From positions 15,477,001 through 15,541,000 of the forward strand of contig NC_092680.1 in assembly GCF_964355755.1 (NCBI RefSeq): a stretch of DNA of 64,000 nt. Reading direction: 5' to 3'. The stretch comes from Antedon mediterranea. Lineage: Eukaryota > Echinodermata > Crinoidea > Comatulida > Antedonidae. The notes beneath the pieces were generated by a model. That model was not told the DNA's origin. It did not search any database and saw only the letters and a list, made by a program, of their open reading frames with translations. Both the position numbers and the translations under genes were made by a program. Of this stretch, positions 3,647-39,100 are shown in pieces (position 1 is the stretch's first letter; each line of letters begins with the position of its first letter).

Positions 3647-5347
3647 CTACGCTTCAAAGATTACGCAGTCGCATGTTCTATAGGAACACACGCATAGAAT
3701 GTAGATGTCTCGTTTGTTTCTGGATAATTTACCACTTTCGACAGTACGAGATTGATCTTCTGACAAAAGGGTTGCCCAATAAGACTTCACACCAAAACAC
3801 TTATCCGCAATTTCATTGACAGCAACACGTCTTAAAAATGCTGATGGAATTTCTTCCTCTCTCTTAAAAGTAACTGAAGGAAATTCTCCATTATGCAGCT
3901 AAAAATAAATAGTATTATAGACACAGTTATAACAATTTAGTCATCGTCCTAGTATTGATTTTATTCAGAAAGGATTTGAGTGTTTCAAAAAATAATTGTA
4001 ATCTACTATGCAACATAAGACGTACAGTAGTTAATATTTAAATAATTCAGAAATTAAACTGATTGAAAAGTTTAGCGTAGACCTATTTATTAGGCTATTT
4101 TATAATTATATATAATACTTACCCAACCACGGTCGTTCCAATCCAAACTGTCATCCTCCCACAAGTAACATGCATTGTCCTTGTCACTGTACGCCGCAAC
4201 AAGTTTCTGTAACAAAAAAAAGAACAGCGTATTATTTATTATAATTGATAATAGTATAACTTCACTAAAAAATGGTTTAGAACGAGATTATAATATACTG
4301 ATCTAATGCCTATATATAATATGATTTATCTGGCAGCATTTAATTTACCTGTCGAAAGTCATAAATAAGCGTTCCTCCCTCAGTTACATTGTGAATCTTT
4401 TCAAAGACTACAGTTTCAACACGGTCAGAGTTCTTAGTAGTAATTTCAATCGAGTGCTTCAGTCCATCGTCATCTGATGTTCTATAGACAATCTCCTAAT
4501 AAAGCAATACATGTTTTATTCTTTAATAACAATCAATTGTTTGACTGCTGAATCTCTTTACTGTACGTAAGTTTCTCTTTTGACCTGAATTATGATGCAC
4601 TAACTAAATTCAAATTTTGGTCAACTTAGACCTAATATTTAATTTAGTTTCAAACAAAAATGTGTACTTACTGTATCGTCTACCATATCTGCATACCTGT
4701 AGTAAAGAACAACTGAACCAACTACACTGATAACCAGGACGGTAGTAACAAAACTAAGTGCAATTTGATTTCTGTTGAGTTTTGACAACTTTCTAGCAAA
4801 ACTTGCCTGAAATTAAGTACAGTTCATCATTGTATATCATATGATAGGACCTTACTGTAATTGCAAATAAAGACCAGTATAATTCACTTTTACCGATATT
4901 CATTTTAGTTAACATGATGCTATTCAATTATTTCTAAAACAACAAATGTGTATGTGTAGTTCTTTGACAATTCAATTCAAAGTTTTTTCCCACAAAAGTA
5001 GGATATTTGTTGGATTTTAGAGTATTTTAAGATTTTATTAATAAGACCTTAATGATTAAATTAGATATAATAAATTAAATACATGTAAAAAATAAATAAA
5101 TTACAGCCAAAATAAACAAGACAAGACAACCTATTTGCATCTTGCTGCAGTCGGTACGATTATTTACAATTGCAATTAAATCGTATTCCAATTACGGTAA
5201 ACAATAATATTAAAAGCGTTTTAAACAATTCATTCAAACTATCATACTATTTAAACCAGACAGTTTAAATTAAAAACGTACCTCAATGTTTATTTGAGTA
5301 TCGACTTCGTTTGTCTTCTTTTCTTCCGCAATCATTTTTGGAAACAT
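3647..5347 (-). CDS. BRICHOS-domain type II membrane precursor with C-terminal 4-Cys peptide (copy A)
   Basis: Five exons, all introns phase 0: 5347-5282, 4806-4672, 4495-4349, 4206-4123, 3898-3647, giving 227 aa. Residues 1-36 are a charged cytosolic tail, about 37-59 a single membrane helix (NQIALSFVTTVLVISVV), then an extracellular linker. A BRICHOS-like domain covers about 70-180, with the family's Asp in LIYDF (D113) and two Cys (C129 in NACYLW, C178 in DKCFG). The motif RNKR (204-207) is a furin-type site. It releases a 20-residue tail with Cys at 213, 215, 220 and 222 (CVCSYRTCDC). BRICHOS proteins chaperone such beta-prone tails during secretion, and in annelids the tails are antimicrobial beta-hairpins (arenicin, capitellacin). 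The tail here is net acidic (about -2), so antimicrobial activity is only a hypothesis. Start codon chosen as the first ATG of exon 1; stop is TAG at 3647-3649. The gene is divergent to the RNase T2 copy on the plus strand. Confidence 0.85.
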
Positions 5348-5619
5348 CTTGACAGTTGAATGTAGACAACACTAACTGCTAACTATGACGATTTTACGAA
5401 CTTTTATACCAACGGGAAGAACAATAAATCCGGCCCACAGTAGAACTTTGCTTTTCTAAAATGAACAATGGAGTCAACATAACAACTTTTATCGAGCATT
5501 ATTATAAAACCAGGAACTATTTTCTCATTTTCTATAAAAAAAATAAGTATTAATTAATCTATTGAACATAATGATTATGAAGACGCTATATTTACAACAA
5601 CAAATATTACTGACTGTTT

Positions 5620-6510
5620 TTTTTTAATCTTATGTGGGTTCATCCCACTTTTATTTCCATACAACTGTTCTCTTTGCATATATTTTTCACTATACACTAT
5701 ACATATCATTATATTTACAATGTTTGTTTAATCATCTGCTTACATATACTTATTGAAAGAGTTTTATTCATTTGTTACAAATAACATATTATCTGTAACA
5801 CATTTTCATTAACAAGCTTATTTTTTTCTTACATAGTTGTTTTTGTTTTTTTCATCTACCACATTTTCATTTAACAATGCATATTCTCTGTTATACTCCT
5901 TACTTACTAAATGTTTACTGTTAACATAATATTGTTCTCATCCTTTAACATTAATATTAATATTTTTGTTCTTTAATGTTTACAAAACTTTTATTTCCAG
6001 CAGATTATCCTTCTAAAACTTCTTAAATTGTCATTTAACTTTTTTACTTTCTTCTCTTATGTGGATTCATTCCACTTTTTTTTTTACTTATTTTCTTTAA
6101 AAAAACTATTTCCATATATTATTTTGTTTATACATACATTATCATTTAACCACATTGATTACATAGTTTCCTCTTTTTATACATATTATCTATAACACAT
6201 TTTCATTAATTTATTTTTTCTTACATAGTTGTTTTTGTTTTTTTTTTTCATCTACATGCATATTTATATCATACAATTATAATACGTTTATGTTTAATAA
6301 ATCCATCCCATGGGTTTGTCCCATTTTATTTTTCTTTGGATTTATCTATGCAAACATATTTTCATTTAAACAATGCATATTCTCTGTTATACTAAATTAC
6401 TTACTAACTTTTTACTGTTAACATTATATTTTCCTCATCCTTTAAGATTGATTTTTTTGATCTTTAAATGTTTACAAAATTTATTTCCAACAGATTATCC
6501 TTTTTTGCAT
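5620..6510. mobile_element. T-rich 891-bp insertion flanked by 15-bp target-site duplication
   Basis: TATTACTGACTGTTT occurs at 5605-5619 and again at 6511-6525. Unit B has a single uninterrupted site (about 17275-17295), so this DNA was inserted after the duplication. The insert is T-rich and carries three degenerate repeats of a 'ttatgtgggttcatcccactttt' type word (about 5632, 6057 and 6302). No ORF. A 15-bp duplication suits target-primed (LINE/SINE) insertion. Confidence 0.7.
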
Positions 6511-6525
6511 TATTACTGACTGTTT

Positions 6526-7332
6526 ATTGACACTTTAATGCATACAGTTTCTTAAACTCACTAAATGTTATTAGATTGTTCTATTATTTTTTGACACAGC
6601 GCAGCATTTCAAATGTATAATAGCCATTAGTATTGTCAAGAAACATGATATAGCTTACGTACTAATTAAATTGAACAACACTGAAGTTTATTCAACTTAA
6701 CTGCATTATTATGGAACAAATTAAACACAACTTATTATTTTGTTTAACTAAATACAAATGTCAACATAACAGAAAATAAGAAAACTATTGTTTAATGATG
6801 CTTTACTCTTAGTATTTATTTACGCACATATTCAAGAAGTACCAAAATGTATCCAGTAGCAACGGATTTACTTGAAAACAAAGCATACCAGAGTATATAT
6901 GAAGTGTATGCAAACTCACATGATTATCATGGCACAATGAACATCAATAATAATTGAACGAAACAAAATTATTATTATTATTATTATTAGTGTTATTATT
7001 ATTAGGCCTATTAAATTAAATAATTACAAATTCTATAAATTGCAAAAACATCTGGGCCTACATATAAACGTAGTAGAAAGCATTACTGCTTGAAGAAATA
7101 AAGATACACTTCACAAAACACTGCTTCAATACGATTGAACTCTTATCCGTATTAGATCGGGCGCTCAGAGAATTTATTCATGGGAAAAGTCATCAAAAGG
7201 TGTGTTTGATGGGCTGATTATGTAGATATATGACAAAGATTTAATAATAAATATTGCTGACGGGTCATATCCTGTAATTTACTGGGGAAACCAAATAAAA
7301 GGGGTAAACATTGATTTACTTATGTGAAAAGC
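6526..7332. other. Intergenic DNA between divergent genes, unit A
   Basis: AT-rich sequence that aligns with 17285-18060 of unit B. It contains an interrupted (TTA)n microsatellite at about 6967-7002. No exon, RNA gene or TIR element was recognised. Confidence 0.6.
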
Positions 7333-7369
7333 TACACATATAAAAGTTTTTGGACATTGTTCCCATATT

Positions 7370-7695
7370 ATGTGTATGCAATGTTAAAACAGCAATGACA
7401 GCAATTTTATCCTGTAAGTTGCCCAAGACAGTAGCCTCAAGTGACCACTCAACAATTGTTCATGTCAAGAGCCACGCGGCTAATTTCTTTTGCATTGTAA
7501 TTGGGTGCACAAAAATACCATTGACACAGCACAAAAATACCATTGACAGCAACTTTATCCTGTAAGTGGCCCCAGACAGTAGCCCAAAAATTCCCGCCAA
7601 AGCAGATTTAATTAGGCGATGAACCACATGGCAAGTTCCTTTTACACTATTACGCTTTGGAATATACAAGAATACAGTAACTTTATCCTGTAAAG
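7370..7695. repeat. Degenerate ~100-bp tandem repeat
   Basis: Repeats built on 'aaaataccattgacagcaac' and 'tttatcctgtaagttgcc' words, ending with 'agtagcccaa'. The same array is at 18100-18450 in unit B. Short open frames on both strands here come from the repeat and are not genes. Confidence 0.65.
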
Positions 7696-11540: not shown

Positions 11541-12776
11541 ATATATAAAGAGTTACGACATTAAATACGCGAATCGAAACAAGGAAATAACATTTTAATA
11601 TTGTCACTCAAATATATTATTACTTTAGCTTGTGTTTCTCGCATTCATCAACATAACTAAAGATGTCTGCTAAATACTTTATTGGCCTGCTAATATTTGT
11701 TGTTGTTAGTCCGAGTAACGCTTGGGTGTATCAATGTAAAGCTTACCCAACAACAAAGTAAGTGTTATTTTTATCGTTACTTAATCTAATCACGAATTGG
11801 TCGAATTTGATGATTCGGCACATTTAAGAAGTTTACCAAGGAGGTATAGTTATATTTGTATCATTATAATATGGTTAAATGAACTGAACTTAAATAGGAA
11901 GAACAAATTAAATTCGATTTTTAAGCAAGCGGTTAAGATTATACAGTAGGCACCGATGTTAAATTGTTAGAACACTTATGTAATGAAATGATGGCTAAAA
12001 AACTTAATTGTATTATGTCTGATGTTACTCACCCTGTCTTTGATACCCTTGTTACCTGATTCAATCAGTTATCAGGTTGTATAATAGAGATTTCAAACGC
12101 TAGTCCGCTAATTATTACTCATGTTTCTGTTACATTTCTCTGTTTATTATTTATTTTAATCTGGTAATTTATGTTATATTCATACTAACTCGAGTGTACC
12201 TAAGAAACCATATCTCATAACTGTATATTTTTGCCGTATCGTATCGTATCGTATTTAGAAAATAGGTCAGCCATCTTGAGATTCTTTATCATAACAACTA
12301 ATCTCGTTGAGACCGAACCAAATCGGTATCCATTTCAGAAATATTTTATAATTCCTAATATTTTGTATTTGAAGTTGTAATTTGTAGGCCTAAATAACTT
12401 CTTATTGTAAGATGATGTAATCCATCTTCTTCTTTTGTGCATTGCCCAATGAGGGATGAATACAGATATAATTATACTGATACTGATAATATAATTAATA
12501 TATACAATTGATGGTTTTCAGGAAGTGTGATCATTTCATGTTTTCTCAACTATGGCCTCCGACATTTTGTAAAATTGAAAAAGTAAGTACCGGGAGTAAA
12601 GTAGCCTAACTAACGTTTTTGTTACTACTAATATGAAGAAAAACAAAAGTGAATGTTCTTTCTATTTAACAGTGTAGCATTCCGACTGGTGTGAACACGT
12701 GGACTATTTATGGACTCTGGTAATGTAAATTATTCATCTATACATACTAATTTATTAATTTGTTTGGGTAGTATAC

Positions 12777-12885
12777 ATTAACAGGGGGAATTACCACCTA
12801 TCTGATAGGACAGTGATTAATTCACTATTGGTAATCCTTTGCCACATTGCCTAAAGACATAAAATAAAAATAAATAAAAACAGAT
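12777..12885. repeat. SINE tail fragment
   Basis: 'cagggggaattaccacctatctgatagg...cactattggtaatcctttgccacattgcctaaagacataaaataaa' resembles 33785-33870, and the duplicate is at 20330-20432. Probably the 3' part of the SINE family seen at 33.6 kb. Confidence 0.5.
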
Positions 12886-13439
12886 AATTATAAAGAAAGT
12901 GATGGATTCTTCATTTCTTACCTTAATTCAGTACCGTACCTTACATTATATTTTTCCGGCAGGCCCGATGCTGCTAACTATTACCTTTCGTTCTGTTATC
13001 CAAAACAAGTGTTCGATCCCAATTCAATCACGGTAAGAAACTATATTATAATTATTTAGACTATTTGCATATGATGCACAATCGTCCAATCACATAACCT
13101 GAATCTATGTACGTAGTGTAACGGATATGGATAAATGTAATAATTTTAACGTTTAACCCGAAGGACAATTTTTTGCGTTAGTAGGATTGGTCACTTGGTG
13201 TTGCAGTAATGATTGTTTATTAATTGTCTGATTGTTTAAAAACAAATTAATCAATCCTACTATTATACCCATCATAGAGTTTAGCGCCGGAACTGGTTAA
13301 TAATGCCTACATCATGCCATGATCTTTTAACAAATCACAGAACCTCACAAACATCACTCACTATCTAAAAGCATCACAACAAAATCAGTCATACTATAAA
13401 CTCATTTATTTATATTATATTATAACTTTCAAAATGCGA

Positions 13440-13590
13440 TCAGAGGATCCATCACATTGTGATCGAACAATTGCGGCGCAGTTTACGTCATCTAAGTGAA
13501 ACCAAACTTTACCCCGAAGAAAGTATTGCAGTGTCCTTACGTCTGGAGAACCAGAGTTTACGGTTGTTACGTAACAATGCTCATTTTTGC
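13440..13590. repeat. Interspersed repeat shared three times in the cluster
   Basis: 'aagtgaaaccaaactttaccccga...gagaaccagagtttacggttgttacgtaacaatgct' also occurs at 21000-21140 and 22905-22995. The third copy lies in RNase intron 5 beside MITE debris, so this looks like part of a mobile element and not a conserved exon. Confidence 0.6.
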
Positions 13591-13986
13591 TGTCAAGTAA
13601 GCATAGCTTAGGATGGCAAATAATATATCAAAGTATTTAATTAACAATAGGCAGCACATCCGCAAATAATATACCTTTAAAAAACATAAAAACAATAACT
13701 TCCTGGTCATTCATTAACTGTAGTCTTGTGGACAAATTGCGTCACTCATGTTTTGTAATTCACCTGAAGAGTGTGACCAGTGGCCATACGAAACAAGCGT
13801 GTAGTGAATAAATATGAAGTCACCTTAGTTCATCTCGTATCGTTTTTTTTTTTATTTAGCTCTACCTCAGTGTATCAAGCACTCTATCCAGGTGATCTGA
13901 ATTATTTATATATACCATGTCCCGCATACCTGGCTCAGCCTATATATTGTGCCAGTTCTGCGGTACATTTTATTTCGAAACCTGAG

Positions 13987-14029
13987 CTGCACTGACGAGA
14001 TCTAATAAGATCGAAACAGTACTCTGCAG
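13987..14029 (+). ncRNA. Decayed hammerhead ribozyme-like sequence (in RNase A intron 4)
   Basis: Core CTGACGA (13992-13998), stem II GATCT-AATA-AGATC (13999-14012), GAAA (14013-14016), and stem I CTGCA/TGCAG are present. Stem III plus the cleavage triplet is changed: CAGTACTC in place of CAGTGCTGTC, which breaks the A15-U16/C-G closing pairs. It is probably inactive. It sits in a 130-bp repeat (13909-14037) just upstream of a tRNA-derived SINE. Confidence 0.6.
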
Positions 14030-14062
14030 ATTGGATATAGATATATATATATATACATATAT

Positions 14063-14205
14063 GGTCTAATGGTTAGGACATCTGCATATCAAGCAGGCGG
14101 TCCGAGTTCGAGTCTCGGTTGGGGAGACATTCTCACAGATTTCCTCATCTTTATCGTTTAAAATTAATTAATTAAATGTCATTATATCACCGGGCGGTTT
14201 AGAAT
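14063..14205 (+). mobile_element. tRNA-derived SINE
   Basis: The tRNA-like head has an A box (GGTCTAATGGTTAGGACA), an anticodon-stem palindrome CTGCATATCAAGCAG, and a T arm with B box (GGTCCGAGTTCGAGTCTCGG). The tail is 'tctcacagatttcctcatctttatcg...aattaattaatt...accgggcggttt'. The first few acceptor bases are replaced by an (AT)n tract. Confidence 0.8.
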
Positions 14206-14603
14206 TACTGTTCTTTGCCTGATTTGTTTTTATATATATAATACTGTATATATGAAATGTTGTAATTTAGTCGTGTAACTTTTAAATTAACTTTGAAGCT
14301 AAAACAGATTTTTATGTTTTCAATTGGGTGTGCTAGGACATCACGGATAAGTTGCAACTCGTATGGCCATCGTTAAAATACAACGAAGAAAATATGTATT
14401 TCTGGTAAAGACATACTTTTAATTGTGCTTAATATTTGTTTTATTTATGGATAATTCATAATATTCATGTTTTAATATTACAATGTGTATAGAGTTGTTA
14501 TGTGTGTTTTTCATTTACGTGGTCTGTTTTAATTGTAAATGAACAAGTAAATTAAAATGAAAAAATAAACAAAATAAAAATAAACAAATAGGGCCTATAC
14601 TGT

Positions 14604-14879
14604 GAATTAGTCAAAACAAATTGTGTGTCGTCCGAACCTGTGAGCAATTCCACCCAGATATACTTATTCTATTTGTTGGTATACGCCATGGTATCATTGA
14701 CATTCTATAATTTATTCTTGAATGTGACGACCAGTTAGAGAAGAAATAAATAAATATTTATTGTCTTATATTTCAACGATATACAAAATAAAACAAATGA
14801 AACTTGTTAGTCTCTAATATTGTCAAGGGTCACTTCTGGTCATCATCCTCGTCACAATAATCATCATCTAGCCCTTTTC
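14604..14879. other. Unit junction, no gene seen
   Basis: Sequence after the end of unit A homology and before clear unit B homology. It contains 'aataaataaatatttattgtc' and a small (tca)n-like stretch at 14838-14870. No exon recognised. Confidence 0.5.
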
Positions 14880-15549: not shown

Positions 15550-17042
15550 CTACTTAATATGGATGATTACAACAACTACGCATTCGCGATAGTAACACAC
15601 GCAGACATAGATAACGTCTCGTTTGTTTCGAGATAATTCATCACTTTCGGCAGTAGGGGACTGATCTTCTGACAAACGGGTTGCCCAGTAAGTCTTCACA
15701 CCAGAACAATTATCGGCAATTTTATCGACAACAACACGTCTCAGAAGCGATGATGGAATTTCTTCCTCTCTCTCAAACGTAACTGATGGAAATTCTCCAT
15801 TATTTAGCTAAAACGATATTATAAAAATGTTAACAATTTCATGCCGAGTGGTCGCCATTCTGAATTGAAAGGAGTGAATTGGAATCCATCGTATCATATT
15901 TGAATTGGGTCATTGTTTCTCAAATAAAAAACATGTTTACATTTGGACTACAAAATTTGGAATGTTGACGTTTTATCTTAGGGGCTTCATTTGTGTACCA
16001 AATTTAAACCAAATACATGACGTGACGATGTACTGTAATTCATTTCGTTCAATTGAGGTGGAATGAGTAGTTGATGGCTTTAATAATTAAAAAAGGTGTG
16101 TTTTATACCTATTTAATACTAAATAAATGACTCCTCAAAACTAGGGCCTATACTTACCCAACCACGGTCGTTCCAATCCAAACTGTCATCCTCCCACACA
16201 TAACACGCATTATCACTGTCACTGTACGCCGCAACAAGTTTCTATAAAAAAAGAGCGTATTATTATTAAATGATTATACAAAGTAGAATGAGTTTATGAT
16301 CCTTATCTCTATTAATTTACCTGCCGAAAGTCATAAATAAGCGTTCCTCCCTCAGTTACATTGTGAATCTTTTCAAAGAATACAGTTTCAACACGGTCAG
16401 ATATTTTAGTAGTAATTTCAATCGAGTGCTTCAGTCCATTGTCTTCTGATGTTCTATAGATAATCTCCTAATAAATAAATAATTCATGTTCTATTATTTA
16501 ATAACAATCAATTGTTTGACTGAATCGCTATACTGTACGTGGCTGACCGTACTGACCTGAATTATGATGCACTTACTAATTTTGTTTACTTCAAATTTTG
16601 TTAAACTTAATATTTAATTTTGCTTCAAATAAAATATTCGTACTTACTGTATCGTCTACCATATCTGCATACCTGTAGTAAAGAACAACTGAACCAACTA
16701 CACTGATAACCAGGACGGTAGTAACCAAAATAAGTGCAATTTGATTTCTGTTGAGTTTCGACATCTTTCTAGGAAGACTTTCCTGAAATTAAGTATACAG
16801 TTCTCTTGTATTTTATGATAGTACAACCTTCTGTAACTGCAGTCGGTATGATTATTTACAAATGCAATTAAATTGTATTCCAATTACGGTAAACAATAAT
16901 ATTGCAAGCGTTTCTAACGATTCATTCAAACTATCATACTTGTATTTAAACCAGACAGTTTAAATTGAGAACGTACCTTAATGTTTATTTGAGTATCGTC
17001 TTCGTTTGTCTTCTTTTCTTTCGTAATCGTTTTTGGAAACAT
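15550..17042 (-). CDS. BRICHOS-domain precursor with C-terminal 3-Cys peptide (copy B)
   Basis: A paralogue of the gene at 3647-5347 with identical structure: exons 17042-16977, 16782-16648, 16467-16321, 16241-16158 and 15807-15550, all introns phase 0, giving 229 aa. The membrane segment, the BRICHOS Asp (LIYDF) and both BRICHOS Cys (NACYVW, DNCSG) are kept, as is the RNKR furin-type site. The released tail is 22 residues and reads CVCYYRECVV: the first three Cys of copy A are conserved, the fourth is Val, and the end is a Val/Ile-rich segment. Odd cysteine number suggests dimerisation, a changed role, or decay, although no frame damage is visible. Most differences from copy A lie in the last exon. 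Confidence 0.83.
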
Positions 17043-17284
17043 CTTGACAGTTGAATATAGACAACACTAACTGCTAACTATGACGATTTCACGAACTTTT
17101 ATACCAACGGGAAGCACAATAAATCCGGTTTACCATAGAACTTTGCTTTTCAGAAATTAACAATGGATTCAACATTATTATATAACGAGGAACTATATTA
17201 TCATTGTTCTGTAAAGAAATAAGTAATATCTTATTGAACATAATATATGAAGATGCTATATTTACAACAACAAACATTATTGAT

Positions 17285-18570
17285 TGTTTATTGACGCTTT
17301 AATGCATCATCCATACAGTTTCTTAAACTCACTAAATTGTATTAGATTTAATTGTTCTATTTGTTTTGGCACAGCGCAGCATTTCAAATGTTATAATAGG
17401 TTATTATAGTAGTGTGAAGAAACATGATACGTACGGTACTAGTTAAATTGAACAACACTGAAGTTTGTCCAACCTAACGGCATTATTATGGAACAAATTA
17501 AACACAACTTATTTTTTTAACTAAATACAAATATTAACATAACAGAAAATAAGAAGAGCACTATTATTTAATAATGCTTTATTCTTAGTATTTATTTAGG
17601 CACATATTCAAGATGTACCAACATGTATCTAATAGCAACGGCTTTAATTGAAAACAAAGCATAACAGAGTATAATTATGAAGTGTATGCAAACTCACATG
17701 ATTATTATGGCACAAAAATGAATATCAATAATAATTTAACAAAACAAAATTATTATTATTATTAGATTATAATTTATAAATAATTACAAATTCTATACAT
17801 TACAAAAACATTTACATATAAGCGTAGTAGAAAGCATTATTGCTGGAAGAAATAGATACACTTCACAAAACACTGTTACCAATACGATTGAACCCTTATT
17901 CGTAATAGACCGGGCGCCCATAGAATGTATTCATGGGAAAAGCCAGAAGGTTTGATGGGCTGATTATTGAGATATATGACCAAGATTCGGGTCCTATCCT
18001 GTAAATTTACTCCGGGGACACCAAATAAGAGGGGTAAAAAATGGATTTAATTATTTGAAAAGTCACACGGATAAACGTTGTTGGACATATGTGTATACAA
18101 TGTTAAAACAGAAATGGCAGCAACTTTATCCTATAAGTTGCCCGAGAGGCAGTACCCCAAGTGACCACTCAAACATTGTGTTTTTCATGTCAAGAGCCAC
18201 GCACCTGATTTCTTTTGTATTGTAACTGTTACACATTGGGATGCACAAAAATACCATTGACAACAATTTTATCCTGTAAGTTGCCCCAGACTGTAGCCCT
18301 AAAATGCCCGCCATAACAGATTTAACCATGCAAATATAAACACGGCAAATTCCTGTTACATTGTAACTATTACCCTTTGGGATATACGAGAATACCATTG
18401 GCAGCAACTTTATCCTGTAAGTTGCCTCAGACACTAAGTAGCCCAACAATTTCCGATTCCGACCCCTACAAGATTTAATAACTCGAAAACTAGATTAAAT
18501 TGGCTATCAAAACAATATCTATGATCTATAGATCATATATTATATCGAACGCTTTATTAGAAATATCAGT
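17285..18570. other. Intergenic DNA between divergent genes, unit B
   Basis: Matches 6526-8190 of unit A without the nested TIR element. It contains a (TTA)n stretch near 17748-17765 and the 'ttatcctgtaagttgcc' degenerate repeat at 18100-18450. No exon recognised; the 107-residue reverse open frame is repeat-derived. Confidence 0.6.
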
Positions 18571-19608: not shown

Positions 19609-22600
19609 ATGCCTGCTACATACTTTATTGGCCTGCTAATATTTGTTGTTGTTATTCCGAGTAACGCTTGGGTGTATCAATGTAAAGCTTACCCAACAAC
19701 AAAGTAAGTGTTATTTTTATCGTTACTTAATCATCATCATCATCTTGGTCGAATGTGATGATTCGGCACATTTAGGAAGTTTACCAAGGAGGTATAGTCA
19801 TATTTATAATATAGTTCAGCTATCTTGAGATTCTTTATCATAACAAATAATTAATCTCGATGACCGATCCCAATCGATATCAATTCAGGAATATTTAATA
19901 ATTCCTAAGAGTTTTATATTTAATATTATTTGAAATTTTAATTTGTAGGCCTACTTCTTATTGTAAGATGATGTAATCCATCTCCTTCTTTTGCCCCATG
20001 AGGGATGAATAACGATATAATTATACTGATACTGATAATATAATTAATATATACAATTGATGGTTTTCAGGAAGTGTGATCATTTCACGTTTTCTCAACT
20101 ATGGCCTCCGACATTTTGTAAAATTGAAAAAGTAAGTACCGGGAGTAAAGTAGCCTAACTAACGTTTTTGTTACTACTAATATGAAGAAAAACAAAAGTG
20201 AATGTTCTTTCTATTTAACAGTGTAGCATTCCGACTGGTGTGAACACGTGGACTATCCATGGACTCTGGTAATGTAAATTATTCATCTATACATACTAAT
20301 TTGTTAATTTGTTTGGGTAGTATACATTAACAGGGGGATTACCACCTATCTGATAGGACAGTGATTAATTCACTATTGGTAATCCTTTGCCACATTGCCT
20401 AAAGACATAAAATAAAAATAAATAAAAACAGATAATTATAAAGAAAATGATGGATTCTTCATTTCTTACCTTAATTTAGTACCGTACGTACTTTACATTA
20501 TATTTCTTCCGGCAGGCCCGATGCTCCTAACTATTACCTTTCGTTCTGTTATCCAAAACAAGTGTTCGATCCCAATTCAATCACGGTAAGAAACTATATT
20601 ATAATTATTTAGACTATTTGCATATGATGCACAATCGTCCAATCACATAACCTGAATCTATGAACGTAGTGTAACGGATATGGATAAATGTAATAATTTT
20701 AACGTTTAACCCGAAGGACAATTTTTTGCGTTAGTAGGATTGGTCACTTGGTGTTGCAGTAATGATTGTTTATTAATTGTCTTTAAAAACAAATTAATCA
20801 ATCCTACTATTATATCCATCATAGAGTTTAGCGCCGAAACTGGTTAATAATGCCTACATCATGCCATAGTCTTTTAACAAATCACAGAACCTCACAAACA
20901 TCACTCACTATCTAAAAGCATCACACCAAAATCAGTCCTACTATAAACTCATTTATTTATATTATATTATAACTTTCAAAATGCGATCGGATGATCCATC
21001 ACATTCTGATTGAACAATTGCGGCGCAGTTTACGTCATCTAAGTGAAACCAAACTTTACCCCGAAGAAAGTATTGCAGTGTCCTTACGTCTGGAGAACCA
21101 GAGTTTACGGTTGTTACGTAACAATGCTCATTTTTGCTGTCAAGTAAGCATAGCTTAAGATGGCAAATAATATATATAAGTATTTAATTAACAATAGGCA
21201 GCACATCCGTAAATAATATACCTTTAAAAAACATAAAAACAATAACTTCCTGGTCATTCATTAACTGTAGTCTTGTGGACAATTTGCGTCACTCATGGTT
21301 TGTAATTCACCTGAAGAGTGTGACCACTGGCCATACGAAACAAGCGTGTAGTGAATAAATATGAAGTCACCTTAGTTCATCTCGTATCGTTTTTTTTTAT
21401 TATTTAGCTCTACCTCAGTGTATCAAGCACTCTATCCAGGTGATCTGAATTATTTATATATACCATGTCCCGCATACCTGGCTCAGCCTATATATTGTGC
21501 CAGTTCTGCGGTACATTTTATTTCGAAACCTGAGCTGCACTGACGAGATCTAATAAGATCGAAACAGTACTCTGAAGATTGGATATAGATATATATATAT
21601 ATACATATATGGTCTAATGGTTAGGACATCTGCATATCAAGCAGGCGGTCCGAGTTCGAGTCTCGGTTGGGGCGACATTCTCACAGATTTCCTCATCTTT
21701 ATCGTTTAAAATTAATTAATTAAATGTCATTATATCACCGGGCGGTTTAGAATTACTGTTCTTTGCCTGATTGGTTTTTATATATATAATACTGTATATA
21801 TGAAATGTTGTAATTTAGTCGTGTAACTTTTAAATTAACTTTGAAGCTAAAACAGATTTTTATGTTTTCAATTGGGTGTGCTAGGACATCACGGATAAGT
21901 TGCAACTCGTATGGCCATCGTTAAAATACAACGAAGAAAATATGTATTTCTGGTAAAGACATACTTTTAATTGTGCTTAATATTTGTTTTATTTATGGAT
22001 AATTCATAATATTCATGTTTTAATATTACAATGTGTATAGAGTTGTTATGTGTGTTTTTCATTTACGTGGTCTGTTTTAATTGTAAATGAACAAGTAAAT
22101 TAAAATGAAAAAATAAACAAAATAAAAATAAACAAATAAGGCCTATACTATGAATAAAATAAAACAACTAGAGCATTCTCAAACTGAGTGACGTTGTTGA
22201 TGAAATGTTACTGATTTTTAAAGGATTTACTGTTTATTTTTATAATTTTTTTTCCTTTAGGCAAAACGAATGGTGCAAACACGGAAGTTGTGCGCTTAAC
22301 TGCACGACTGAAACAGATTCAGAGAGAAATTATTTCAACAAGACGGTTGATTTAAATAAAAAGTTTAGTATTGATAAGTAAGTTCTATTACAGGAAATTC
22401 TTATACTATAAACTTTGGTATTGAATCATTACAGAGCCAAACATATCTTATATATTATGATCATTTTAGACAAATGGCAAATCTTAATTACTTCTGACAA
22501 AATATCGTCATCGTAGACTAGATTACATGTAGAGTGCATGTTTTTCTGCCTAGAAGCTTGTTCCGCAACAACGCAAGTGATTTGACCCATCACCGGCGAT

Positions 22601-25643: not shown

Positions 25644-25845
25644 TGACAATTATATTTTACTATTCTATTAATTACTGTGTTGTAATTTGTAAATTTTGCT
25701 CGTTTCCTTTCTCTATATCATATTGATATGCTTTACACAGTAAATAATTGGAAACGTATAGGCCTAAGGAAATGTTAACATTAATTTTAACACCAAACTT
25801 TCTTGGAAAGAATTAATATGTAGCATAAATATAAATGGTAACACA

Positions 25846-26163
25846 ATGTATGTTAAGGCACGAGATAAAATGGCAAACGAAAATTGTTTAGTTTGTTACG
25901 ATCAGCTTCTGACTGATCGATGGAAATGTGACCAATGTACGTTAGAAGCTCATATGACCTGCATTGTGCGATGGTGTAACACCTCGCAAACGTGCCCTCA
26001 ATGTAGGTTATCAATCACTACTACTCCTTCTACCCCTACCACTCCTTCTACCCCTACCACTCCTTCTACCCCTACCACTCCTTCACGCTCATGGGGAGAC
26101 GAAGAGATCTTGTTTGCAGAATCTAACAGAAGTTGGATCCGAACATTTGATTTCTATGTTTAA
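25846..26163 (+). CDS. Small RING-like zinc-finger ORF (intronless)
   Basis: 105 aa from the first ATG; the second ATG at 25870 (aaaATGg) has the better context and would give 97 aa. Residues 14-53 hold eight possible zinc ligands in order: C14-x2-C17-x10-C28-x2-C31-x4-H36-x2-C39-x10-C50-x2-C53, ending CPQCR. This is a C4HC3 arrangement similar to compact RING or RING-variant fingers, as in small E3 ligases. Then follows a low-complexity TPSTPT tract coded by four 18-bp repeats (about 26024-26083), and a short C-terminal end. The ORF is single-exon and isolated among repeats. It may be a retrocopy, an orphan gene, or one exon of a larger gene. Confidence 0.5.
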   Translation: MYVKARDKMANENCLVCYDQLLTDRWKCDQCTLEAHMTCIVRWCNTSQTCPQCRLSITTTPSTPTTPSTPTTPSTPTTPSRSWGDEEILFAESNRSWIRTFDFYV

Positions 26164-30128: not shown

Positions 30129-33100
30129 ATGGCGCTGGCTGCAGGAGGTCTGTTGACAGTTCCTACGTTAAAAGGGTTTGTTTTAACTGACAAGTTGGGA
30201 AGTGGCACATATGCAACGGTTTATAAAGGTTTTAGAAAGGTGATTCATTATAAATTATTGTTTTCATGCATATTCATTGCAGATTGTAGGTATATGCCTT
30301 GGATATATGTACAGTCATTGCCAGTGGCACTTCACAGGCCCACCAGCCAGAGTGCACATTTTCACTCATTATTTCCATCAGCTCGCTCGGCTCCGCCAGA
30401 CAGATTTCATAGCTGGGCCAAGGCAAGCTAGCCAAAAAATGTAAAGCTGCCATAGCCTTTCTTTGTCCTTGTGATGATACTGGATAGAAACATAAAACAT
30501 ATAGGCCTAGGCCTACTACTAGGCTAGGGCCTAAAATGTAGGCCAAGCAAGGGCCTACTACTATACTATAAAGTGAGGGGTCCTACTAAACACCACCAGA
30601 TACCTACTAGGGGCCTAGGCCTAGAGCGATAAATCCTACCACCAGAGAGCAACCACCTGTTTGGAATTGATTATTAAGGGTATATTGCAAATTTCAAAGC
30701 TTAAGTCTTTCAGAAACTGATAAAATTGAAGTTTAAAGTTGAATTTCTCGCCGTCGTATTCCAGAACCGAATGCGTTTGATAAACATTATAGCAACGAAA
30801 CGAACGCATTCATCCGTGTCTCTTGTGACGTGTATTGTATTCAACGGTCAACTATGAGGCGCTACCGATGAATTTATTTGGTCAATTAAAATCAGAAATT
30901 CGTTTCTGTACACTATAACATTTATTAAAAATAAATAAAACTTAATGCCAACTACATTTTGTCAGTGATGGTAATGCACTTGTCAATTGTATGACCCACT
31001 ATACGACCCCCGGGAGAGGTGCGTCATTTGTCCGATGTGCGTCATACTTTTGAATACCATGACGCACCCGTGCATCAAAAAGGTGACTTACCTTTAGGTG
31101 ACCATGACGCACCCATTTTGACGCACTGTGACCATGTTGTTTATGATATGGTGGGTGGTAAAGTGACGGACATTGACACACCTTGTTTATTGATGTGACG
31201 TACCATCTAGGTTTTTTGACGCACCCCTGTGTCAGTAATTATTTGTAAATGACGCACCTCTCCCGGGGGTCGTATAGTGGGTCATACAATTGACAAGTGC
31301 ATAATCGTATGTTAAAATAGAGTAAACTCATTATAGAATAGGAATGTGGAAAGAGAAAATAAAACAGAAGTTTTAACTTGATATTACCGTGTATTTTATG
31401 TCTAAAGAAATATCTGGCCACTGCACTATATGTCAGAGTGGTGAAATAGAAAATATACAACATTTTTTATTTAATTGCCAAGCTCTTAATGCCATAAGAG
31501 AGATTGAATTTATAATAATATAATAACCATTCCTACAGCACCCAGAGTATACGAAAATGATGACAAAGGGAAATAATTAAAATTAATGTGCAAAAAAAAT
31601 GTTATCGTATGGTATGCTATTTGTTATGTTATCGTTACCGATTTTGACATACAAAACATGATAAAAACATAATGATAAAAACATAATGTCAAAAGAAAGA
31701 CTAATCGCGCAATCGATTGGTGTAATTTATGTGACTGACTAAAGTAACAAAAAAGCATCGGTAGCGCCTCATAGTTGACTGTTGAATACAATACACAAGA
31801 GACACGGATGAATGCGTTCGTTTCGTTGCTATAATGTTTATCAAACGCATTCGGTTCTGGAATACGACGGCGAGAAATTCAACTTTAAACTTCAATTTTA
31901 TCAGTTTCTGAAAGAATTAAGCTTTGAAATTTGCAATATACCCTTAATAATAAATTCCAAACAGGTGGCTGCTCTCTGGTGGTAGGATTTATTGCTCTAG
32001 TTGGTATCTGGTGGTGTTTAGTAGGACCGTAAAGTGAGTCCTCCTGGTGTCGAACCTACGTCATTATGACAGGTTTGGCCACCGCGCACCGACAAGTTGA
32101 ACCGCCGGTCAAACAATCGTTTTCGGCGGTTGTTTAGACCATATATTTTGGAAACTATGAGTCAGATTTTTTAAATTTATTTCTTTAATTGCAATATTTA
32201 TAATATTAATAGACTAAAAAAACCGTGATATTAACTTTTAAATATATAGGTACATCGATATATCCTATGAATAGAATTTTCTATTAAAAAGAAACTAGCC
32301 TAGCATCGGCGAAAGATAGCAGTTGGCATTTCATAGAAAGTAATGTTTTCCTGGGCGACGGCTCAACTTGGCCTAATCCGAACCCACTACCACCCAATCC
32401 CTGAACCATGACGTACCAATATCTATGCCAACCAGCCAATCAACCTAGCCTGCTCTGCTGGTAATACCTATGCACTTTTCAATTGCATGACCAAATACAA
32501 CCCCCGGGAGAGGTGCCTCATTAGTCCGATGTGCGTCATACCTTTGAATGCCATGACGCAACTGTGTATGAAAATGTGACCTACCTTTAGGTGACCATGA
32601 CACACCCATTTTGACGCACTGTGACCATGTTTTTAATGATATTTTTAGTGGTAAAGTGACGCACCATCAATTATTGATGTGACATACTTTCTACTAGGTT
32701 TTATTACATCAGGAATTTTTTTTTAAAGGGAACACCCATGACGCAGTTCTTCCGGGAGTCGTATAGTGGGTCATACAATTGACAAGGTTACTAAAATAGA
32801 TTATAAATTACATAATCATTAATATAGGCCTATATTTACTTTTCCAGGTGGCACACAGAGAAGTCGTAGCAGTAAAATGTGTCCTAAAAAAGAGCCTGTC
32901 CAAGTCCTCTACAGAAAACTTGTTAACAGAGATTGAAATATTAAAGAAAGTAAAGCATGACCACATTGTAAACTTAATTGACTTTCAGGTGAGAATTAAA
33001 CATATCATTTTATATATTTCTACAAAAAAATAATTTTTACTAGAGGCACACTATATTCCAGAGGCAACATTAACAACCACCATTTTCGGTCATAAATCTA

Positions 33101-36100
33101 CTGTGTGTGGTATTGCCCAGTATTGTTTTATGATATAAAATGATATCAAGCACATGTAATTAACATGCTCTATAGTAATAATTTTAACTTACAGTATCAT
33201 TATATTTTTCCAGAGGCAAGTTAAACTATTGTTTATTTATTTATTTAAAAACATATTTATACATAGGATTTAAACCTACCGGGTGCAGATATGCACCTGT
33301 TACATATGGTCCTGTTTTTAAGGAGCAAAAATGTTGTTTTCATTCTCCATAACAGTTTCAAAATAAACCTGATCAGTATTTTGACTTAATTTTTTGATTT
33401 AAAAATTCACAAAACGACATACAATTAAATATTTAGAAAATAACATTTAATGTGATGTTAGGATGTACTTGATAACATTTTATAAAACCCTACCCGTCCG
33501 GTCCCCGACATGCGATACTGGGCGTAGATTAGTATACAAATGAATAAGTTATATGGCGGAGAAATTAAGGCAGGGGCCGCTGTTTACTGTACCTAAAAAG
33601 CTCATAATATTAGCTGATTTCGACACTGCCTCACTCCTAGTTTTGGTTGTGGAACAAGTATTCCCTGATAAGGACTATAAACCGTAGGTCCGGTGTACAC
33701 AGTTAAACATGTGTGCACTTTAAAGAACCCAGTTCATCATTCGGGATGAGTAGGGGCTTAGTTCACAAAATAGCCCTTGTATCAGGGGGATTACCACACT
33801 ATCTGATAAGAATTCACTATTGATAACCCTTGCCTACATTTGCTTTAAGTCATAAATTTAATAAAACAAATAAAATTAAATTAATAAAAATAAATACTTT
33901 TTTTATCAGGGATTGTAATTAGTAAATTTAATTCGACCTCTTAATAATAAAACATTACTATACTTCACTGGACTTACAACATACTAAAACATATTGCAAC
34001 CATTGGGAACTTGTTGTCTTTATAAGCTTACTTTTCTTTCCAGTGGGATGGGCATTACATCTACCTGATAATGGATTACTGCAGTGGGGGAGATTTATCA
34101 AAGTTTTTAGCAACGAAAAGAGCACTTCCTGAACGAGTTGTTCGACGATTTTTGCAACAATTAGGTAAAAGTTAGATTGAGAATGAATCATTTAGAGTTT
34201 ATGCACATTGAAAATTAGTCTACAATATTATCTATGTAGCCTAATTTAATTTTAAATCAATAAAAACTATAGCAACATTAAAAATAATTTGTACTAATTA
34301 TATAAAGAAGTATTTAGGTAGATTCTAATGGTTGCTTAATTTGCAGACACCATCTTTATAATCCATCATATAGCATTACCTAGCTATATTTTCTGGATTT
34401 TCCTAATCATGAATTATTTACAAAGAAATAATTGGTCATGTTATGTTGACCAAACACTTATCCATATGTTAAATTACTAGGCATACATTCTGTAACTATA
34501 CTTAATAGTGGTACACACATTGTTTAAAACACAATGTTTATGTCGAGTCAATTGGCCCAGAGGTTAAGGCACAGGCGCTTTTGGTGGTCGAACTAGTCTT
34601 AGATAAGGAATTAACCGTTGTGGACAGACGAACAACAGCGCCGTTTGGTGGCATCACTTGACACAAAGTGTCCAGACCTCTGTACAATATAATATAGCTC
34701 AGTTAGGCTGCAAGCCACAGGCTAACTCATGAAATATTTTTAAAGATTTATTAATGGTTGGTGTGACAAATTATTTTAATACATTTTTTTTTTCTTTTTA
34801 CATCAGCTAGTGCTTTGCAGTTTTTACATTCACAAAATATATCTCATATGGATTTGAAACCTCAAAATCTGCTACTTTCCAACTCATATGATCCGGTGTT
34901 AAAGGTTGCAGGTAAGCTGTATGGATGATTCGGCCCACATGGGCTGAGAGACAATTTCGCCCAAACCATGGTTGTTAATATGCATTTTTGTTGCTATTTA
35001 TCAAGTTTTTTAAAGTTGATTGAACTAGACAATCATATTAAATGATAATATAAATAAACACAACAGCCACAGAATATGCATTCTAAACCACCCGATGATA
35101 TAATGAAATTAATTAATTCGAAACGATAAAGATGAGGAAATCTGTGAGAATGAGAAAAAGTCCTAACATTTTGTGTAAGTAGCCATGTTCTAGCCTGCTA
35201 GACTAGACCAATTGCATCGATAGCTGGAGGGGTTTAATGCATTGAAACAAAATCAAAATTAATCATTATTAAATACACTAGAAATATATATGTATCGCTA
35301 TTTATAAATCTATAAACACAACAGGCATAGAAATAAATTCCAAACCGCCCGGTGATACACTGAAAATTATTTAATTAATTTTTGAAACGATAAAGATGAG
35401 GAAATCTGTGAGAATGAGAAAAAGTCGCCCCAACCGAGACTCGAACTCGGACCGTCTGCTTGATATGCAGTTGCCCTAACCATTAGACCACTGGGGCTTT
35501 CATGGTATTGTTCTTTAACTCGATCGGATAACGACCCTTTAACATTCTCGGCGTGGTACGGTTGGAACACAACTAGTCCTCAGTTGTACGCACGCGCACC
35601 AGAGATCAAATTGATACGCCCTCATCTATAATTCAGTTTAAACTATTTATAAATCTATAAATGTGTATATCATTGGAAAGGTTACATCTTCGGCCGAATC
35701 TCTGCAGCTATTTGACACACCATATTTTTCTTTTACTCTTACCCTAATTACGAAATTCTATTCTGGTACAATATAATAATAATAATATATAAATACTTTA
35801 TTTTAACACGGAAAAGCTTGTGTCACCATAAAGGTGTTCTTCTACAAGGCCGTGATCAACTAACAGTAGTACATTACACATTTAAAAATAACAAATTTAA
35901 GAAATAACAAATTTTCAAAATTTTGTCTTTTTTTAAACAGTCATAGTTTCTAAAGTAAACCGTGAACCGTTTATTTTTATTACAAAATCTAGAAGTTGAT
36001 GAGTTGTAGATAACGGATCATGCATCGATAAGGCTAATAATAATAATAATAAATACTTTATTTTAACACGGAAAAGCTTGTGTCACCATAAAGGTGTTCT

Positions 36101-39100
36101 TCTACAAGGCCGTGAACAACTAACAGTAGTACATTACACAATTTAAAATAACAAATTTAAAAAACTAGATGGTACGCTCGCTTCGCTCGCGTACCATCTA
36201 GGTCGTACCCACAGATGGTTCTCGAATACACAGTAATTTCAGCGTTAAAAAACTGGCGATTTCAAATGTACAATAATGCAGGACAATAATATATGTCGTT
36301 TACAGGAACGATTAAATAGACACTGTGATTTATGTACTCAACTAAAATTAGCACACTGGGAATTACTTCCGAAAGAGAAAGTTGTCACAAAATGAGACCA
36401 ATTGTTTAAGTCAAATTTAAACAAACTTAATTTGTGTTTTGTATGTAACATTATGGTTGAGAGATGGGGAAGAGGATGGGTGCAAAGAGGAACAATTTTT
36501 AAATATATTCTTTATTTTGTAACGAAATATTAATTAACATGTTTTACAAATAATATACCACTAAACACAGTAAAACATTGCGATGTAATACTTTGTTGAA
36601 ACTATCACCGTCGTAGTCGATTGAAATAGTACAGTACATGTAACGATACACTACGACGTATGTTTATATATAATGTTAAACAGTTTGTGAAAACCACCTC
36701 TATTCGGGGCAAATCATAAATTCGATTTAATCGGTAATAAATATTAAATTACGGCGACTGAAAACGCTAGCTCATTATCCGTTTAAAAAAAATTATATCC
36801 AACCTCTGCAGCACAGATTGAAAAAAATAATGGATCGAATTTCTGTTATGAGTACAGTACTTTCCTTTACGACGCCTGAGGGAATAGACACTTGTGGAAC
36901 GACACAGAGATTGGAATGTTCCATTCATCGCAAATCAATACATTTGTATAAACGTATATTAAATCTATCAAAATAGTATTTTTTTAAGAAAATCGGCCTG
37001 TCTTCAACATTATGATACTGTACTCGAGCTGTTCAACCGGTTTTCAGCTATTAAAAACAATTATCGTAGGAGGAGATAGGAAAATGCGAAGCCTCCTCGC
37101 ATTTTTGTGGCGGGTATTTTTCAAGATGGACATCCATTAGACAGTGTATACCACGATCGGAAAACACCCCTATCTGGGGCAAATCGTTGAACCTAAATTC
37201 GTTTTAATCGTCAATAACTAATTATCTAACTCAATTTAATTAGTAAACAGGGTTACATCAGGTGGTTAAAATCAGTACCGAAAGTACGAACCAACTTTAC
37301 ATACCATCGAGTAAAAATTCTAAAAGTAAGGCGTGATTTACCGAATTTTGCCCTTACGTAAATTTATATATAGATAACACATTTTCAAAATTTTGTCTTT
37401 TTTTAAACAGTCATAGTTTCTAAAGTAAACCGTGAACCGTTTATTTTTATTACAAAATCTAGAAGTTGATGAGTTGTAGATAACGGATCAATGAAAAAAC
37501 TAATGAAATAATTCAAAGCTGTTATTTTTGTATTGAAGATTTTGGTTTTGCACAGTATGTTGAAATACAGATAAACAGTGAAAGTCTCAGGGGATCTCCA
37601 CTTTACATGGCACCAGAAATTATTATAAATGCTACATATGATGCTAAGGTTGACTTATGGTCAGTTGGTGTCATTCTTTTTGGTAAGTATTTGTTGTCTG
37701 TAAACGGATGTGAGGTGCTGGAAAAACAGCTTTTCAGGGATGAGATTCCTCCTTGAATCGACGGATTTCATTTTTGTAACCTCTCAATATTATTCAAAAT
37801 CTGAATCCAAAATTTTGTTTGGAGTGTAGGTGGTACCGTCAATCAATCATTATAACAATTCATTTCGCGCCCTTGATTTTTTTTAATTTGTTAATCTAAC
37901 TATATTTAGATTTTTGGTGGCGCTATTTACTATATTGACACCGTTCTCTGTTATTGTAGATGTTCACAAAGTTTTTGTTATATTAAAATTACGGTAAAAT
38001 ACAAATCTAAATTTATTTAAATGATTTATTTGTAATTTTATTACAAAATGAACTACATTGAACCTGGGTTCACGAAGTGGAAACAGTCGTTTTTGATGTG
38101 ACTGATTAGATCACGAAGTAGATGTTGAAATTTGTGCGAGTCCATGAACGCATGAAGCTGGGTAATTACATAAAAAAGCCCACAATGATTATCAGAATTC
38201 AGCATAAATCTAACATGTAATTAAATTAATTTGTAATACTGTATAAAATAATAATAGATCCATATTTTTGTATAATTTTTGTAATATTATTTTATTATGT
38301 TGGGGACCCCTTTGGAAACAAGCCTCTGGGCTTAAAGGGCCATCCCCTGCTTTCCATGCTTATTTTCTTGTCTAGTCTTGTATTTTTATATTTAATTGTT
38401 TCTCTTTTTATTTCATTTACATTATACTGTTTTATTTATTTGTACTGTATTTGGAAAGCAATAAATATTACTTACTTACTTACTAACACCGCTGGGAATG
38501 CCTACTGACCGTTGTGCAACGTCAACGCCTTTGTTGTAATTGTTTTGTAACTACTGTGGAGTAGCTTTGCGTCAGGGTGTTGAGTAATTGGTCAGATGTT
38601 TTGTAAGTACATTGAGAATACTTGGCTAGTGATCTGGAGGTCGTGGGTTTGAGTCCCACCCGAGAATCACTTGCAAATTTTTTAAAATTCTCAATGTACT
38701 TAGTATGAAGTACAAATTACATCAGAGTAGGGCAAAATATCTGACCAACAACTATGTTGTTTTGTTATAATCAATTAATTGTCAAGATTATTAAAGAAAA
38801 AAACATTTATTATTCTTAAATAAAACATTTGATTATTCTAAATGCAATTTATGAAATTTGCTATTTTTAATTGCTTCATTGTGAGTTGAATACCTTGAAT
38901 AGAGGGCAACATAGACTCCCCTTAATCCCACTATTGTGTACTATTAGTATTTTATTTATTGATATTTTCAGTATTTTTGATTGTGTTCCTTTTTAGAATG
39001 TCTATTTGGTAAAGCACCATTTGCATCCAAGACGTTTTCAGAATTAGCTGACAAGATAAAAAGTAATGAACCTATTAAGGTAAGGTAACAATACTGTAAC

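Follow-up and report, generated by a model that had tools for sequence, protein, structure and literature searches.

A tandem family of likely BRICHOS-type precursors with cysteine-bearing C-terminal tails

Gene D, its tandem paralogs and their surroundings

The window analyzed here is a stretch of DNA of 64,000 nucleotides, and at positions 3647–5347 of its minus strand lies gene D, the five exons of which (Table 1) read through to a single protein of 227 residues, matching the gene proposed in an earlier note on this DNA. All introns of this gene are GT–AG and all are in phase 0, and the sole other open splice combination among those tried gives a protein one residue shorter, through an alternative acceptor of exon 3. 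The residues that the earlier note had singled out (D113, C129 and C178, the RNKR site, and the cysteines at 213, 215, 220 and 222) are all found where it had placed them. Residues 37–57 are the most hydrophobic 21-mer of the protein, with a net charge of +2 ahead of residue 37, and the lumenal part up to the putative cleavage site has a net charge of −8. As judged from these letters, the layout is that of a predicted type II membrane protein.

Table 1. Positions of gene D, its parts and paralog E in the window (position 1 is the first base of the window).
Feature	Position	Strand	Content and basis
Gene D, exon 1	5282–5347	minus	Start codon and cytosolic N-terminus MFPKMIAEEKKTNEVDTQINIE; counterpart exon in A, B, C and E
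Gene D, exon 2	4672–4806	minus	Basic stretch and transmembrane helix
Gene D, exon 3	4349–4495	minus	Linker, then start of BRICHOS including D113
Gene D, exon 4	4123–4206	minus	BRICHOS; first signature Cys, C129 (D+16)
Gene D, exon 5	3647–3898	minus	Remaining BRICHOS with C178 (C-x5-Y), RNKR, tail and stop
Gene D, RNKR furin-type site, residues 204–207	3710–3721	minus	Position from the reading frame
Gene D, 20-residue tail DIYILCVCSYRTCDCVIFEA	3650–3709	minus	Predicted beta-hairpin; reading frame and AlphaFold
108 bases upstream of the gene D ATG	5348–5455	minus	TATAAAA box; nearly identical in paralog E; alignment
Paralog E, 229 residues	15550–17042	minus	RNKR, then DVIYVCVCYYRECVVVVIIHIK; exons 16977–17042, 16648–16782, 16321–16467, 16158–16241 and 15550–15807; inside the same window

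When the genome (354 Mb on 18 contigs) was searched with D, exon by exon and with only the best candidates scored, such that distant members elsewhere are possible, 21 matches were obtained, every one of them within 15.396–15.494 Mb of contig C11. The corresponding search with paralog A placed 18 of its 19 matches in the same region, and the remaining one, on C3, is at chance level (E = 2.99). This region of a single chromosome holds five tandem paralogs, A–E, each encoded by the minus strand in five exons that are all in phase 0 (the exon boundaries of A, B, C and E were set by eye at AG/GT and then read through), and the earlier suggestion of a gene family is supported by five copies in one genome. 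Identity to D is 80% for E, 41% for A, 41% for B and 38% for C. In gene C (C11:15439400–15445200), an intron of about 3.2 kb that contains repeated sequence separates exons 3 and 4, and because this third intron may join pieces of two copies, the model of gene C is less sure: its exons 1–3 and 4–5 could come from two broken copies.

Between D and E, exons 1–4 are 92–95% identical, exon 5 is 82% identical and the four introns are 47–80% identical. The conservation of the exons above that of the introns supports a working coding sequence, and with it the five-exon gene of the earlier note. Both genes sit within a larger tandem duplication, in which, for example, 5145–5622 pairs with 16837–17292 and 6512–7693 with 17276–18420. 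Paralog E is flanked by a 2.4-kb direct repeat (12249–14619 and 19798–22167, 96% identical), and further tandem duplicates lie at 1–673/1526–2198 (98%) and 8416–9967/9610–11226 (88%).

The rest of the window contains an open frame at 25768–26160 (plus strand) with a RING-finger match of 23.7 bits, just under the Pfam cut-off of 27.3, and exons of a protein kinase gene at 32803–37753 (plus strand; Pkinase matches at 32803–33030 and 37484–37753), which presumably resemble those of ULK3. At 44432–45215, a 42-bp tandem repeat of 18.6 copies with 94% matches, which has long open frames on both strands, is probably a minisatellite.

Elsewhere in the genome, a homeobox search returned 27 matches, 14 of which were read, and these include a Hox cluster at C2:7.83–8.21 Mb, with twelve homeobox matches over 380 kb, of which eleven share a strand and one is inverted. 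We take its homeodomains to be, in order, Hox1 to Hox8, Hox9/10 and three Hox11/13, with Hox4-like and Hox6-like genes both present, and the inverted gene to be a posterior one; two genes on C5, 90 kb apart, are presumably Xlox-like and Gsx-like. Hox1–Hox8, Hox9/10 and three Hox11/13 form the set of echinoderms and hemichordates, which makes the genome likely to be that of an ambulacrarian. On the basis of this complement, the family probably lies outside annelids, as the earlier note had proposed. Hox9/10 and Hox11/13a are genes that are named in a brittle star (PMC11310086). A search for COX1 yielded no candidate in this genome, compared to matches in 8 of 14 control genomes, and no mitochondrial contig was thus found.

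Relationship to the BRICHOS superfamily

BRICHOS (Pfam PF04089) is the only family that matches the lumenal part of the protein, and it does so in all five paralogs, with E-values of 0.00066–0.061. The scores are 14.0 bits for D, 19.9 for E, 20.3 for A, 18.3 for B and 18.6 for C, all below the curated cut-off of 25, and the match covers at most profile positions 4–40 of 91, which is about the first third of the domain. The profile search that had been proposed as a check therefore returned BRICHOS as the sole lumenal family in every paralog, but at scores short of the cut-off. Other weak Pfam matches, to FBO_C, DUF4307, TMEM154 and others, were rejected, as they vanish when the lumenal part is scanned alone.

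When a profile of the lumenal parts of the five paralogs was aligned to human SP-C and Bri2 using hhalign, a score of 32.67 was obtained, compared to 23.01 for the best of 500 column shuffles and 8.78 for the reversed profile, and the P-values against SP-C and Bri2 as single proteins are 0.0013 and 0.0066, respectively. The match is limited to about 40 columns near the Asp and the first Cys, with the second half of the domain aligning poorly. The three invariant residues of BRICHOS (Asp, first Cys and second Cys) are present in all five paralogs as D113, C129 and C178 or their equivalents, with a spacing of 16 from the Asp to the first Cys in each, equal to that of D144 and C160 in ITM2A (PMC2751770). 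Furthermore, all five paralogs have x5-Y after the second Cys, in common with SP-C (CGEVPLY) and Bri2 (CHDKETY), the letters of which were matched to the PDB chains 2yad and 8rnu. The overall layout of a BRICHOS protein (transmembrane or signal region, linker, BRICHOS and beta-prone C-terminus) is also present, with a hydrophobic 21-mer in every paralog and strands predicted for the tail of D.

When PDB sequences were searched with D alone and with the paralog profile, the matches obtained were at chance level only, with no BRICHOS chain among them. The Pfam BRICHOS profile yielded no candidates when run against the whole genome, nor in any of 14 control genomes, and this absence is thus not informative. 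In the BRICHOS fold, two helices flank a sheet; exon 5 of D folded alone gave a poor model with a mean pLDDT of 51, with two strands in the tail region (63–71 and 75–82).

Taken together, the gene D family likely belongs to the BRICHOS superfamily. Of the BRICHOS precursor described in the earlier note, the signature residues stand and the profile score exceeds all 500 shuffles, while the Pfam matches remain partial and below the cut-off. Computation from the letters gives the gene structure, the family and the signature residues directly, and on these the genes A–E are likely to be a real, intact-looking and new family of BRICHOS-type precursors with cysteine-bearing tails.

Cysteine frame, release and divergence of the tails

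Counted from the first cysteine of each tail, the cysteines stand at positions 1, 3, 8 and 10 in D, at 1, 3 and 8 in E, at 1 and 10 in A, and at 1, 8 and 10 in B and C. The spacing C-x-C-x4-C-x-C, which the earlier note had described, is therefore a property of D, one of the five paralogs, and does not hold as a family trait. In a hairpin with its turn at positions 5 and 6, position 1 faces position 10 and position 3 faces position 8, such that every tail has at least one facing cysteine pair within a shared 10-residue frame: both pairs in D, the inner pair in E, and the outer pair in A, B and C. The tails of E, B and C have three cysteines each, which leaves one unpaired. We note that, when each tail is shuffled by itself, the support for these cysteine slots is weak (p = 0.25 for A, 0.07 for B and C, and 0.02 for E), and that B is almost a copy of C and E a close relative of D; because of this, the shared frame is a pattern and not proof.

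AlphaFold, run on the C-terminal 32 residues of D from an alignment of all five tails and with no negative control, places strands at 14–21 and 24–31, with a mean pLDDT of 91 over residues 21–30 and of 73 overall. In the predicted hairpin, C213 faces C222 and C215 faces C220, and the beta-hairpin tail of the earlier note is thus predicted for D, with both cysteine pairs in register.

The net charges of the tails are −2 in D, 0 in E, −4 in A, +1 in B and 0 in C, and the antimicrobial reading raised earlier is weakened by these values, although a defence role of the tails is plausible. In particular, none of the three tails that follow a cleavage site (D, E and A) has the positive charge that BRICHOS antimicrobial peptides carry as a rule. 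The E tail is rich in Val and Ile and belongs, by this composition, to the beta-prone sequences that BRICHOS domains are presumed to protect.

The motif RNKR stands directly ahead of the tail in D and E (two of the five paralogs), and RNRR does so in A (one of five), while the aligned residues in B and C are ENPR and ENTR, which are not furin sites. RNKR can thus not be retained as a family trait. Since one or the other of these motifs is present in A, D and E and a furin motif is missing from B and C, release of the tail is likely for the former three and unlikely for the latter two, as read from their sequences.

The tail is also where D and E differ most, with dN = 0.70 and dS = 1.06, compared to dN = 0.075 and dS = 0.145 in the remainder of the protein. 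Nonsynonymous change between the two is concentrated in the tail relative to the rest of exon 5 (Fisher test on rounded counts, p = 2e-6), and synonymous change is higher in the part of exon 5 ahead of the tail than in exons 1–4 (p = 0.002); the tail does not differ significantly from the rest of exon 5 at synonymous sites (p = 0.11). Positive selection on the D and E tails is not supported, as omega in the tail is 0.66 and dS is raised there as well. Because of this omega, relaxed constraint would suffice to account for the divergence, as would an older exon 5 combined with converted exons 1–4. In B and C, exon 5 is almost identical (7 changes in 78 codons), whereas exon 1 has diverged (11 changes in 22 codons), and the A–E array looks mosaic, probably via gene conversion. 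An identical peptide across paralog genes is described for alvinellacin (PMC5431198), which is like the case of B and C and unlike that of D and E, the tails of which have diverged strongly. This divergence of the tails, like the predicted hairpin of D, is a computed result.

Comparison with known precursors and proposed reading

We consider it somewhat probable that gene D encodes a BRICHOS-escorted precursor of a furin-released disulfide hairpin. BRICHOS proproteins are described as type II or secreted, from 11 phyla and 14 families, and as having a beta-prone C-terminal region (PMC10182729), and the architecture of the gene D family is the one described there. Echinoderm and amphioxus sequences, which come from the likely taxonomic neighbourhood of A–E, are named in a divergent group of two BRICHOS sequences in the survey by Hedlund et al. 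(2009; PMC2751770), and this group is a candidate relative of the gene D family.

The family shares with the annelid precursors of BRICHOS antimicrobial peptides (alvinellacin, capitellacin and HfBRI) a BRICHOS proregion, a basic cleavage motif and, at the C-terminus, a disulfide hairpin about 20 residues long, which is predicted in D. Alvinellacin has 22 and capitellacin 20 residues (PMC13001179), the alvinellacin genes are tandem copies (PMC5431198), and 13 HfBRI precursors are described as having a dibasic motif and peptides at the C-terminus, 5 of the 13 being transmembrane (PMC10745061). As far as these sources describe them, the annelid peptides are cationic as a rule, whereas the site-bearing tails of A, D and E have charges of −4, −2 and 0; the HfBRI peptides are enriched in positive charge, with two, HfBRI-75 and HfBRI-91, not markedly cationic (PMC10745061). 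On account of the charges of all five tails, we do not file gene D with the BRICHOS antimicrobial peptides, which in the literature examined are all from annelids. Among the open-access papers listed, as judged from titles and abstract openings, none dealt with BRICHOS peptides of echinoderms or hemichordates.

Protegrin, a peptide of the cathelicidins, has the cysteine spacing C-x-C-x4-C-x-C. The likeness that the earlier note had seen here is to gene D only, as the other four paralogs lack this spacing, and in contrast to the protegrins the D tail is not cationic and no Pfam match to a cathelicidin proregion was found among the five proteins. The resemblance is thus at most convergence.

A different reading, which we regard as unlikely but as the strongest of the competing ones, is that these are membrane proteins of the Bri2/ITM2 kind, the tail of which would be cut off only incidentally, as in the case of Bri23, with the membrane-bound or shed BRICHOS domain working as a general chaperone or signalling protein unrelated to defence. 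Gene D shares with human ITM2B/Bri2 the type II layout, the Asp–Cys spacing of 16, the C-x5-Y motif and a basic site followed by a short cysteine peptide of low charge, in the same order of BRICHOS, KR and cysteine loop (the ITM2B letters were mostly confirmed against a PDB chain). In addition, the chaperone half is the half conserved between D and E, and B and C retain the whole protein without a furin motif. Against this, the tails of ITM2 proteins have one wide cysteine loop, C-x16-C in Bri23 by the ITM2B letters and C244/C261 in ITM2A (PMC2751770), compared to a 10-residue frame here with one or two facing pairs; the spacing of 17 between the ITM2A cysteines is not found in any of the five tails, in which the widest distance between cysteines is 9 in A, B, C and D and 7 in E. 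Tandem copies with divergent tails, and a BRICHOS domain that has diverged past the Pfam cut-off, likewise set A–E apart from human ITM2B/Bri2 and its relatives. ITM2 genes are widely conserved, and human ITM2B had no match in this genome, in a search run without a positive control. By tail charge and topology, gene D is closer to Bri2, and by hairpin size it is closer to the annelid peptides.

It is improbable, in our estimation, that the tail is a secreted signalling peptide, similar to a hormone or neuropeptide, with a disulfide loop. The tail is indeed short, bears cysteines and is not cationic, with a furin-type site ahead of it in three of the five paralogs, but a type II anchor combined with a BRICHOS propart would be unusual among neuropeptide precursors, and in the comparison of D with E it is the tail that is conserved least. 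Quite improbable is a tail that is never released, its cysteine cluster serving as a membrane-tethered cap, a dimerization handle or a metal site: the missing furin motif in B and C and the odd numbers of tail cysteines in E, B and C, which could pair between chains, would fit such a role, but A, D and E retain RNKR or RNRR right ahead of the tail, and the cysteines occupy positions in hairpin register. Finally, we give hardly any credence to a protein outside the BRICHOS superfamily, a decayed gene or a wrong exon model, as the partial and sub-threshold Pfam matches and the PDB searches that returned no BRICHOS chain are opposed by five open paralogs with GT–AG boundaries, exons more conserved than introns, a profile score above all 500 shuffles, and C-x5-Y at the second Cys of every copy.

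Returning to the BRICHOS-escorted precursor of a released hairpin, the anatomy of the protein suggests how its processing might proceed. Protein D would be inserted into the ER membrane in type II orientation, and there its BRICHOS domain, with D113 and a probable disulfide between C129 and C178, would shield the beta-prone C-terminal tail while the tail cysteines are oxidized. A furin-like protease would then cut after RNKR-207, to set free a 20-residue hairpin with the cross-strand pairs C213–C222 and C215–C220. In B and C, the tail would stay tethered to the membrane, as the furin motif is gone. The five tandem copies would in this way retain the chaperone half and vary the tail, to produce a small set of different hairpins. 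We infer expression, cleavage, disulfides and function of the gene D product from its sequence, and the most likely use of the hairpin, in our judgement, would be as a secreted surface or defence effector.

More tentatively, and with rather less confidence than we place in the precursor itself, the array may represent a deuterostome's own BRICHOS peptide system, with a conserved chaperone half, tandem copies, and varied non-cationic hairpins on a 10-residue frame, in which cysteine pairs would be gained and lost at matching cross-strand slots, with some hairpins released by furin and others bound to the membrane. If true, BRICHOS-escorted hairpins would be at work in an animal other than an annelid, and would not need a positive charge to function. 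The role proposed for BRICHOS domains is that of chaperones for a segment of the same precursor that is prone to aggregation (PMC10182729), and the physiological roles of most BRICHOS members are unknown. A tandem set that combines one chaperone half with five related tails, in a likely ambulacrarian, would allow the requirements of BRICHOS for its clients to be tested, and likewise whether the release of peptides from BRICHOS precursors was used more than once.
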